From positions 1 to 46,465 of the forward strand of contig CADBFP010000014.1 of assembly GCA_902793995.1 (NCBI GenBank): a stretch of DNA of 46,465 nt, in the 5' to 3' direction. Numbering within the stretch: the stretch's first letter is position 1; each line of letters starts with the position of its first letter. The stretch comes from an uncultured Lachnospiraceae bacterium. GTDB taxonomy: Bacteria; Bacillota; Clostridia; Lachnospirales; Lachnospiraceae. Positions 7,854-22,721 of the stretch are shown piece after piece. A program made the translations under genes and the position numbers. Below the pieces are notes generated by a model that saw nothing but the letters and a program-made list of their open reading frames with translations, searched no databases and had not been told where the DNA came from.

Positions 7854-7933
7854 GGGCATCGCCCTCTGCGAAACGACCCTCCCCCTGAAGAGGGGGAGGG
7901 TGTCAGCCCCTGGCTGACGGGAGGGGGCGACTG
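7852..7933. repeat. Hairpin-rich intergenic repeat A1
   Basis: Three hairpins follow recN in series: GAGGGC/GCCCTC (7852-7866), a perfect 11-bp stem (7876-7886 with 7891-7901, GAAG loop), and GTCAGCC/GGCTGAC (7902-7918), ending in GAGGGGGCGACTG. The arrangement and the closing GAGGGCGACT-like end match the elements at 20405-20480 and 30282-30325. None ends in a T-run on the plus strand, so this is a mobile or REP-like palindrome rather than a typical terminator. Confidence 0.65.
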
Positions 7934-20033: not shown

Positions 20034-20405
20034 ATGAAAAAAAACAGTATCAAAAACGAAAGAATCAATGCGGAAGTCCAGCGGGCCCTCAGCCAAATCA
20101 TCCGGGAGGATGTGAAGGACCCCCGCATTCCCGTGATGGTCAGTGTGGTGCACTGCCAGGTGGCCCCGGATCTGAAAAGCTGTAAAGCCTATATCAGCGT
20201 TCTGGGGGATGAGCAGGCCCGGGCAGACTGCCAGGCGGCCTTAAAAAGCGCCGGAGGTTTCATCCGCCGGGAACTGGCTCACAGCCTCAATCTGCGCATC
20301 ACGCCGGAGATCAGCTTCATCATGGACAATTCTATCCAATACGGGGTGGAAATGTCCCAAAAAATCGATGAAGTGATGAAAAAGCAGGAAGAATCGCAAA
20401 ACTAA
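20034..20405 (+). CDS. rbfA: 30S ribosome-binding factor RbfA
   Basis: KH-fold factor that helps mature the 16S 5' end, 123 residues. The family pattern is clear: ERINAEVQRALSQIIREDVKDPRI near the N-terminus, then CKAYISVLGDEQ and the LRITPEISFIMDNSIQYG block. GAGG precedes ATG 20034. In relatives a DHH phosphoesterase gene (nrnA) lies next; here a hairpin repeat takes that position. Confidence 0.95.
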   Translation: MKKNSIKNERINAEVQRALSQIIREDVKDPRIPVMVSVVHCQVAPDLKSCKAYISVLGDEQARADCQAALKSAGGFIRRELAHSLNLRITPEISFIMDNSIQYGVEMSQKIDEVMKKQEESQN

Positions 20406-20480
20406 GGGCGACTCCTTGCCCTCTCCCTGACGAGGGAGAGGGTGGCACGGCCGTCAGGCCGTGACGGGTGAGGGCGACTC
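20405..20480. repeat. Hairpin-rich intergenic repeat A2
   Basis: Two hairpins, CCCTCTCCCT/AGGGAGAGGG (20419-20442) and CACGGCC/GGCCGTG (20446-20463), lie between two copies of the decamer AGGGCGACTC (20405-20414 and 20471-20480). The direct decamers could be target-site duplications or element ends. The first copy overlaps the rbfA stop codon. Related to 7852-7933 and 30282-30325. Confidence 0.7.
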
Positions 20481-20511
20481 GAAATCCAACTAACTACAAA
20501 GGAGGTAAAGC

Positions 20512-22338
20512 ATGGACGGACTAATCATTGTCAAGAAGGAAAAGGGCTTTACCTCCTTTGACGTGGTGGCCAAATTAAGAGGCATTTTAGGAGAAAAGAA
20601 AATCGGCCATCTGGGAACCCTGGACCCGGAAGCGGAGGGCGTTCTGCCGGTCCTGGTGGGCCGTGCCACCCGACTGGCCCCGTTGATGGGGGAAAGCGAA
20701 AAGGTGTACCGCTGCACCCTGCTTCTGGGTATCCGTACCGATACCCAGGATACCACCGGCCGGCTCTTGGAAAGGCGCCCCGTCTCCTGCAGGGAAGAGG
20801 AGGTGCGGGCTCTTATCCCCTCTTTTATCGGGGCGCAGGATCAGCTTCCCCCCATGGTATCCGCCAAAAAAGTGGAAGGGCAGCGGCTCTACGATCTGGC
20901 TCGGCAGGGCAAGGAGGTGGAGCGGAAGAGCTGCCGCATTCACATTGAAGATATACAGATTCTTTCCGTAGATTTGCCACGGGTAGAACTGCGGGTTTGC
21001 TGCTCTGCCGGTACCTATATCCGCACCCTTTGTCATGATATAGGGGAAAAGCTGGGCTGCGGCGGCGCCATGGAGACGCTGGTCCGGGAGGCGGCGGGAC
21101 CCTATGAACTGGGAGAAGCCATTTCCCTGGATGAGATTTGTTCTTTGGTCCTTACGGATTCTTTGCATAAAAGAATGCGGTCTTTAAAGGATCTTTTGCG
21201 CCAATATGCCGGCTTTGTCTGCACCGCCCAGGGAGAAAAATATGCTTCCAACGGCAACCCTTTGTCTCTTCATTTGGGGACCCTGGAAAAGCCCGTCTGG
21301 GACGGATTCTGCGTGCATGTCATGAAAGCGGACCGGACCTCCATCGGTTTGTTCCGCTTCAAAGAAAGCCAGAATAAACTGCTTCCCGAGGTGATGATCC
21401 CGCCGGAGGAAAAGAAAGCAAAAGCCGCCCCTCGGCCCAGTGTGGTCTCTCTGGGGAAGTTCGACGGTGTCCATGTAGGCCATCAGGCCATCATACAGGA
21501 AATGCTGCGACAGGCAGAGGCGGAGAAGCTGAAAACCCTGCTCTTTTCCTTTACCAATCCGCCGGAAACCATGACCCAGCACAGAAAAGAGGAACTCTTG
21601 ACCACGGCGGAGGAAAAACGCCTGCTGCTGAAAGAGATGGGAATCCATACCCTGGTGGAGGCCCGTTTTACCCGGGCCATGCGGGATATGCCGGCGGAGC
21701 AGTTCCTGAAGGATATTCTGATTGGCCGCTACGGCATGAAGAAAATCGTGGTGGGGCCGGATTGCAGCTTTGGCAAGGACCGGCAGGGGGATGTGAGTTA
21801 TCTCCGAAAACATGCCTCGGTACTGGGTTATGAAGTAACGGTGGTGGATAAGATCCAAATGGATGGGGATATTGTCAGCAGCAGCCGCATTAAAACCCTG
21901 GTGAAGGAAGGCAAAATGGAGGCGGCTGCCCGCCTTTTGGGCAGACCCTTTGCCCTGCGGGGCCGGGTGGGTTACGGACGGCATCTGGGAGAGACTCTGG
22001 GCTTTCCCACCATCAATGTGAAAATGCCGCCGGAGAAGGTCTTTCCTCCCTTTGGGGTATATGCGTCCTTAACGGAAACGGAGGAAGGAATCCACCCCGG
22101 TATGAGTAATTTCGGCATCAAGCCCACGGTGGAAAGAGAAGGGCTTCCGGCCATTGAGACCCATTTGTTGGATGAGAACCTTAACCGCTACGGCTGCCTT
22201 TGCCGCCAGCAGCTCTTAAGCTATATCCGCCCGGAGCAGACTTTTTCCTCTTTGGATGCCTTAACGGCGCAGTTGAAGCAGGATAAAGAGCAGCTGCTGG
22301 CGTATTTTTCTGCTGCTTCGCCTCAAAGAATTCCATAA
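20512..22338 (+). CDS. TruB-RibF fusion: tRNA Psi55 synthase and FAD synthetase/riboflavin kinase
   Basis: One 608-residue ORF carries two normally separate enzymes. Residues 1 to about 290 are TruB, which makes pseudouridine 55 in the tRNA T-loop. The catalytic Asp38 lies in GHLGTLDPEAEGVL, and SAGTYIRTLCHDIG and a C-terminal PUA-like part (YAGFVCTAQGEKYASNG) are present. After a charged linker (about 293-307) comes RibF, which phosphorylates riboflavin to FMN and adenylates it to FAD. The nucleotidyltransferase domain opens SLGKFDGVHVGH (313-324), and the kinase domain starts near 477 with GRPFALRGRVGYG and GFPTIN. AAAGGAGG precedes the ATG. No internal ribosome-binding site of convincing spacing is seen at the junction. 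Confidence 0.93.
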   Translation: MDGLIIVKKEKGFTSFDVVAKLRGILGEKKIGHLGTLDPEAEGVLPVLVGRATRLAPLMGESEKVYRCTLLLGIRTDTQDTTGRLLERRPVSCREEEVRALIPSFIGAQDQLPPMVSAKKVEGQRLYDLARQGKEVERKSCRIHIEDIQILSVDLPRVELRVCCSAGTYIRTLCHDIGEKLGCGGAMETLVREAAGPYELGEAISLDEICSLVLTDSLHKRMRSLKDLLRQYAGFVCTAQGEKYASNGNPLSLHLGTLEKPVWDGFCVHVMKADRTSIGLFRFKESQNKLLPEVMIPPEEKKAKAAPRPSVVSLGKFDGVHVGHQAIIQEMLRQAEAEKLKTLLFSFTNPPETMTQHRKEELLTTAEEKRLLLKEMGIHTLVEARFTRAMRDMPAEQFLKDILIGRYGMKKIVVGPDCSFGKDRQGDVSYLRKHASVLGYEVTVVDKIQMDGDIVSSSRIKTLVKEGKMEAAARLLGRPFALRGRVGYGRHLGETLGFPTINVKMPPEKVFPPFGVYASLTETEEGIHPGMSNFGIKPTVEREGLPAIETHLLDENLNRYGCLCRQQLLSYIRPEQTFSSLDALTAQLKQDKEQLLAYFSAASPQRIP

Positions 22339-22454: not shown

Positions 22455-22721
22455 ATGACCAGCAAAGAAAGAAAGGCCCAGATCGTGGCCGAATTTGGCA
22501 AGAACCCCCAGGACACCGGTTCGCCGGAAGTGCAGATTGCTCTTTTGACGGAGCGTATCCGGGAGCTGACGGAGCACCTGAAAGAGCATGGCAAGGATAA
22601 CCACTCCCGCCGTGGTTTGTTTATCCTGGTAGGCCGTCGCCGGGGGTTATTGGATTACATGAAGGCCAATGATATTGAGGCCTATCGTAATTTGATCGAG
22701 CGTTTGGGAATCCGCCGTTGA
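22455..22721 (+). CDS. rpsO: 30S ribosomal protein S15
   Basis: Primary 16S-binding protein, 88 residues, the standard length. The sequence has [22 protein letters not shown], then [14 protein letters not shown] and [13 protein letters not shown], the rRNA-contacting segments. GGGAGG precedes ATG 22455. It is followed by a good terminator (22731-22762) ahead of pnp, the conserved downstream neighbour. Confidence 0.98.

Follow-up and report, generated by a model that had tools for sequence, protein, structure and literature searches.

In the genome of an uncultured Lachnospiraceae bacterium, TruB, responsible for a near-universal tRNA modification, and RibF, the source of the cofactors FMN and FAD, are joined in one open reading frame of 608 codons, as the sequence-only reading had proposed, and both halves score above the cut-off of their family models. 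The frame lies in the window, i.e. the whole stretch of 46,465 nucleotides that was analysed, which is one whole contig of the source genome. Its product would consist of a tRNA Psi55 synthase (TruB), a short flexible linker and a riboflavin kinase/FMN adenylyltransferase (RibF). The proposal made here is that this is a three-activity housekeeping enzyme that arose by loss of a stop and a start codon, with an evolutionary ratchet as the main reason why the two stay joined; as a whole the proposal is given a probability of about 0.85. A widespread RNA modification enzyme is thereby found joined to the cell's flavin cofactor synthase in a conserved architecture. With two housekeeping enzymes that have no metabolite in common in one protein, the case offers a natural test of adaptive versus neutral-ratchet fusion of operon genes.

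Pfam profiles match the 608-residue protein in the order TruB_N (residues 23–170), TruB_C_2 (171–214), FAD_syn (305–459) and Flavokinase (476–598). Among the NCBIfam models, TIGR00431 (TruB) gives 239.2 bits against a cut-off of 151.45 and covers model positions 1–209 of 210, and TIGR00083 (ribF) gives 238 bits against 184.35. NF004162, also a RibF model, scores 252.6 against a cut-off of 241, and narrower RibF models fall below theirs (e.g. NF004160, 265.9 against 295). TruB chains from the PDB align over fusion residues 3–267. The positions that had been named from the letters alone are right, namely D38, SLGKFDGVHVGH of the FAD synthase half at residues 313–324, and a kinase that begins at 476. 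So is the claim that both halves keep their key motifs: D38, GKFDGVHVGH, VSSSRIK, PTIN and E549 are present. We take D38, in the GTLDP motif, to be the TruB catalytic Asp; GxFDGxHxGH and SSxxIR/K are presumably the FMN adenylyltransferase motifs, and PTxN and E549 the riboflavin kinase motif and its catalytic Glu. In an alignment of 16 fused proteins, D38, G315, K316, F317, D318, G319, H321, G323 and H324 are invariant, as are P499, T500, N502 and E549 of the kinase half. Coordinates are collected in Table 1.

Table 1. The truB-ribF fusion gene, its parts and neighbours in the window, and stand-alone RibF-like genes of three f130 genomes
Feature	Position	Strand	Remarks
truB-ribF fusion gene	20512..22338	+	ATG start, 608 aa plus stop, no internal stop
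Shine-Dalgarno AAAGGAGG	20498..20505	+	6 nt 5' of the fusion-gene ATG, read directly; strong
TruB part, residues 1-297	20512..21402	+	catalytic domain (D38) and C-terminal part to the usual TruB C-terminus
Linker, residues 296-309 (PPEEKKAKAAPRP region)	21397..21438	+	16-row alignment; predicted coil
FMN adenylyltransferase (FAD synthase) domain	21424..21888	+	PF06574, 146 bits; GKFDGVHVGH and VSSSRIK motifs
Riboflavin kinase domain	21937..22305	+	PF01687, 117 bits; PTIN (499-502), E549
rbfA, upstream neighbour	20034..20405	+	ORF
rpsO, downstream neighbour	22455..22721	+	ORF
Second, stand-alone RibF-like gene, G1310	L167:1166-2062		
Second, stand-alone RibF-like gene, G1300	L168:1195-2349	-	
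Second, stand-alone RibF-like gene, G1309	L169:1040-2047		

The source genome (2.17 Mb) has one TruB_N match and one FAD_syn match, both in the fusion frame. A second truB or ribF copy could have been missed in this 64-contig, 93%-complete draft, and nearly all genomes compared here are drafts as well. As no other gene for either enzyme was found in the genome, neither half could afford to lose its activity, and we infer that both are catalytically competent. This argument is limited to single-copy genomes, since in family f130 (see below) a fused half can lose the kinase beside a second gene copy. An FMN riboswitch was not found in the window, where the only Rfam match over the gathering score is a tRNA.

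The AlphaFold2 model, computed with a 16-row alignment, has a mean pLDDT of 86.4 and a pTM of 0.83, and consists of two mostly confident halves; low-pLDDT stretches are at 119–127, 351–358, 538–540 and 603–608. By Foldseek, the TruB half resembles 2ab4_A (TMt 0.87) and the RibF half resembles the FAD synthetases 2x0k_A (0.79) and 1mrz_B (0.86). No solved structure that spans both enzymes is among the PDB chains listed as sequence or fold matches. Between the halves the model has coil at residues 296–309, with a block-mean pLDDT of 89 for residues 291–300 and 78 for residues 301–310; the short charged linker noted earlier is thus borne out, its charged stretch being EEKKAKAAPRP. The two halves would probably behave as independent domains on one chain.

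The fusion is a property of the genus. Protein searches find it unbroken, from residue 1 to about 600 and without a stop, in 15 of the 16 genus genomes (own genome included), and the 14 other fused congeners show 47–69% identity to the protein described here. The sixteenth genome, which is 67% complete, has no match to the fusion protein. For 11 species pairs of fused groups, dN/dS is 0.10–0.22 in the TruB part and 0.05–0.25 in the RibF part. Judged by these ratios, the frame is maintained by purifying selection over both halves. The dN/dS of the linker itself says little, because there are only 15 codons and several pairs are saturated there.

Gene neighbourhoods were examined over about 1.5 kb of flank. 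In 11 of the 15 genus loci rbfA was found to precede the fusion. Within these short flanks, rpsO was found downstream in six of the 15 and in two of the three loci of a second Lachnospiraceae genus, g221. The DHH phosphoesterase gene nrnA stands between rbfA and truB in all four unfused Lachnospiraceae loci checked. It stands between rbfA and the fusion gene in only three of the 11 genus loci with rbfA in the flank (L047, L048 and L049); in the other eight (L037, L040, L041, L044, L045, L046, L050 and L051), rbfA is directly 5' of the fusion gene. In the window, the gap between rbfA and truB (20405–20505) contains a strong predicted hairpin (-50.3 kcal/mol, z -4.1), in which the Shine-Dalgarno of the fused gene is predicted to pair with CUCCUU. 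A piece of this hairpin, 74 bases long, has no match in the retrieved loci beyond the own genome. Its stem has a look-alike at 7877–7900 with three mismatches.

The same architecture was looked for in other genomes, and proves to be genus-wide and to recur elsewhere. Among the matches listed for 397 Lachnospiraceae genomes of 334 genera, full-length stop-free matches are found only in G000 and G238, of the own genus, and in G220, of g221, a genus in which all three genomes are fused. As had been stated for relatives, truB and ribF are adjacent separate genes in related genomes. In 71 of the 397, one match runs across separate truB and ribF genes and is interrupted by one or more stops, and 57 of these have a single stop (a hand count of the listed rows). 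In the order (246 genomes) and the class (391), the matches listed contain a full-length fusion only in the own genome. The order search also led to G499 of family f5, which is fused, with inserts, in an open frame of 696 aa. Eight genus mates of G499 were searched: seven carry the genes separately or as pieces, and the eighth is without a match. In the G499 fusion (L118/L144), TruB carries almost 70 extra residues as an insert, the kinase has an insert too, and GKFEG replaces GKFDG in the FAD-synthase motif.

At the phylum level (299 genomes), fusions are also present in G1076 of family f163 and in G1295 and G1148 of family f130. Twenty f130 genomes comprise 14 with the fusion, four with separate genes and two without a match; in one of the fused genomes, G1309, the gene begins at a contig end. 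The idea that the fusion is unique to the own genus is thus rejected, as it is also found in g221, f5, f163 and f130. In total at least 34 of 1317 distinct genomes are fused (15 + 3 + 1 + 1 + 14). The 1317 are a non-random set in which the own genus, g221 and f130 were targeted on purpose. The search tables give the best matches, about 150 rows, so poorly scoring fusions may be missed and the fused counts are lower bounds.

Several other long frames were considered as fusions and rejected. In G388, G225, G318, G101, G169, G152 and G325 (frames of 630–678 aa), truB is separate from nrnA + ribF in 7/7, and in the locus table ribF of G101 is scored as separate too. The frames of G269 (1040 aa) and G331 (537 aa) are not TruB-RibF fusions either. 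In G331:C198 (L024/L059), the FMN adenylyltransferase half of RibF reads, as judged by eye, into an SH3/NlpC-type, cell-wall-like protein. The contig is 4.2 kb, the genome is 68% complete and part of a flavokinase is found on a different contig; C198 is perhaps chimeric.

How often the fusion arose was addressed with 122 TruB + RibF pairs, 34 of them fused. Five of 166 loci do not have both halves (L060, L119, L155, L162 and L166). Partial genes (L007, L024/L055/L059, L097, L138 and L148/L164/L165), L098, which repeats L046, and further loci that duplicate one already taken from a genome were removed. A maximum-likelihood tree from a quick search shows five state changes, and its starred branches force five, but stars of the quick trees that involve long rows are less trustworthy, and the count of origins relies on AU tests. 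These used 53 rows (own genus and g221) or 44 rows (other tests) out of the 122. A single origin of all fused rows is rejected (p-AU 2.4e-5, 44 rows), as is one clade of own genus, g221 and G499 (p-AU 7.7e-41, 44 rows). There are thus at least three independent origins. The own genus and g221 as one clade are not rejected (p-AU 0.736, 53 rows) and may share one origin; the quick trees separate the two, with g221 on a long branch. It should be pointed out that counts of state changes do not separate fusion from later fission in f130.

The likely route to the fusion is the loss of the truB stop and of the ribF start. This had been suggested from the one sequence, and it gains support from the relatives, where the two genes are adjacent and often in the same frame, an adjacency for which no excess over chance is claimed. 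The ancestral state would have been a pair of adjacent, co-directional and often same-frame operon genes. From such a pair the step to a fusion would be easy, and its reversal would be hard, as both parts are needed. To our knowledge, TruB and RibF have no metabolite in common. The joining of two needed domains at little cost, rather than substrate channelling, would be what mainly keeps the fusion in place, and we infer that it acts as an evolutionary ratchet. The joining may be near-neutral, and a neutral ratchet would explain both the recurrence and the patchiness of the fusion.

What can follow a fusion is illustrated by three genomes of f130, G1300, G1309 and G1310 (83–84% complete, 1–3% contamination). 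Their fused proteins, encoded at loci L134, L135 and L136, have FAD_syn matches of 131–142 bits and no match to Flavokinase at an E-value as permissive as 0.5, and the PTxN motif is absent. In the G1300 protein the FAD-synthase motifs are altered as well (GYFDG, VSAS). In each of the three genomes a second RibF-like gene stands alone, and its Flavokinase match scores 108–118 bits. The FAD_syn match of these three genes is partial, covering profile positions 2–83, 7–116 and 7–115 of 158 with 39–61 bits against the Pfam cut-off of 27; there are deletions in FAD_syn, and the SSxxIR motif is missing. The fused and stand-alone copies thus appear to have divided the labour by complementary loss. Agreement among three f130 genomes in two genera argues against contamination. 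From f130 it seems that, once a fusion has formed, the activities of a bifunctional enzyme can be shared out between two genes.

A different explanation of the same pattern is that the fusion was selected for a coupling of tRNA modification with the supply of FAD: TruB would bring a source of flavin to tRNA, or flavin would tune TruB. Flavoenzymes that would act on that tRNA are, for example, TrmFO (FAD) and Dus (FMN). The same pairing did arise repeatedly, and it is present through the genus and in 14 of 20 f130 genomes, but the adjacency of truB and ribF alone makes recurrent fusion likely without any function. In PMC6418473, TrmFO is described as a folate/FAD-dependent enzyme that methylates U54, next to Psi55, and loss of Psi55 alters other tRNA modifications in Thermus. 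A link between flavin and this region of tRNA is thus conceivable; against it, FAD diffuses freely and there is no shared substrate. That the three f130 genomes keep the FAD-synthase half on TruB and the kinase on another gene counts in favour of coupling. Yet only two of 334 family genera are fused among the matches listed, which suggests a benefit that is weak or lineage-specific. Selection for coupling is therefore considered unlikely. Equally doubtful is its stronger form, in which the joining was selected rather than fixed by drift and TruB is a tRNA-bound platform for FAD synthesis that feeds, or senses flavin for, tRNA-modifying flavoenzymes. If that were true, the f130 arrangement, a TruB-FAD synthase beside a separate kinase gene, would represent the highest degree of specialisation.

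A further question is whether the continuous frame might still yield two separate enzymes, either from an internal start before RibF or by cleavage of the linker. The sequence at the junction bears on this. In most of the stand-alone TruB proteins inspected the C-terminus lies close to a KMF motif; in stand-alone RibF, GKFDG usually comes about 20 residues after the start. The TruB part of the fusion reaches the usual TruB end, matched by eye at V294-M295; the charged stretch follows, and then SVVSLGKFDG. The linker thus replaces the approximately 20 N-terminal residues of stand-alone RibF. In the FAD synthetase of Thermotoga (T. maritima, 1mrz), chain residue 2 aligns to fusion residue 311, so that this enzyme has almost no N-terminal stretch. 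As 1mrz begins at the same point as the RibF core of the fusion, the replaced stretch is naturally dispensable.

Met295 is invariant and could appear to be a RibF start, but by eye it corresponds to the Met in the C-terminal KMF motif that most of the inspected stand-alone TruB proteins share. Start signals were defined as an in-frame ATG within 38 codons or fewer before GKFDG, with at least four bases of AAGGAGGTG 4–10 nt upstream; six of the 122 rows have no anchor motif and were left out. Of the 83 ribF genes that stand alone, 53 are preceded by such a signal, against 204 of 1081 background windows. At the junction it is found in none of the 15 genus members (background 46/360); of the 18 fused genes from elsewhere, five have it near the junction (background 38/444). 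With GTG and TTG also allowed, the counts are 64 of 83, four of 15 and 10 of 18, with backgrounds of 0.35, 0.30 and 0.30, respectively. The own genus thus has no internal start signal above background, given the absence of ATG signals and a GTG/TTG rate at background, and the 5' start has a strong Shine-Dalgarno; by eye, 14 of the 15 genus members have GGAG just 5' of where the gene starts. An internal RibF start is possible in some of the other fused lineages.

The linker itself, being short, charged and a predicted coil, is of a kind that might be cut. Taken together, production of separate enzymes from the frame is considered quite improbable, and the preferred reading is that the full-length chain would stay uncut. 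The 1:1 ratio of the two enzymes, which had been predicted, follows from one open reading frame and the lack of an internal start signal in the genus; it is probable rather than certain, as proteolysis or an atypical internal start could alter it. Finally, an assembly or sequencing error that erased a stop, a worry raised because the window is from one draft genome, is refuted by a frame that is unbroken across the junction in 14 diverged congeners and in other genera.

A published description of a TruB-RibF fusion was not found in titles and abstract openings of the open-access literature, and it is likely that an earlier record of this domain architecture exists. The words 'TruB' and 'pseudouridine' are absent from the main text of a study of B-vitamin gene fusions (PMC4921024), whose supplementary fusion tables may list the pair, and TruB is absent from the available part of a paper on riboflavin breakdown in Lachnospiraceae (PMC12934955). 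The finding may also be relevant for annotation, should databases name such proteins after just one of their halves.

Compared with known enzymes, the first half shares with TruB (TIGR00431; PDB 1k8w, 1r3e, 2ab4) the domain order, the GHLGTLDP motif with the catalytic Asp, and the fold; it differs in that there is no stop at the TruB C-terminus and the chain continues into RibF. The second half has both catalytic domains of RibF (TIGR00083; PDB 1mrz, 2x0k), with their motifs and fold, but it is without its own start and the usual N-terminal stretch, and TruB precedes it. A truB-ribF operon pair in Blautia (PMC4630832) has the same genes in the same order and adjacency, but as two separate genes at contig positions 300–1012 and 1193–2032. 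The RibD and RibF fusions in the main text of PMC4921024 are likewise fused genes of cofactor metabolism. RibDd/RibDr and RibFa/RibFk join neighbouring steps of one pathway, whereas TruB and RibF are brought together in one protein while sharing no metabolite.
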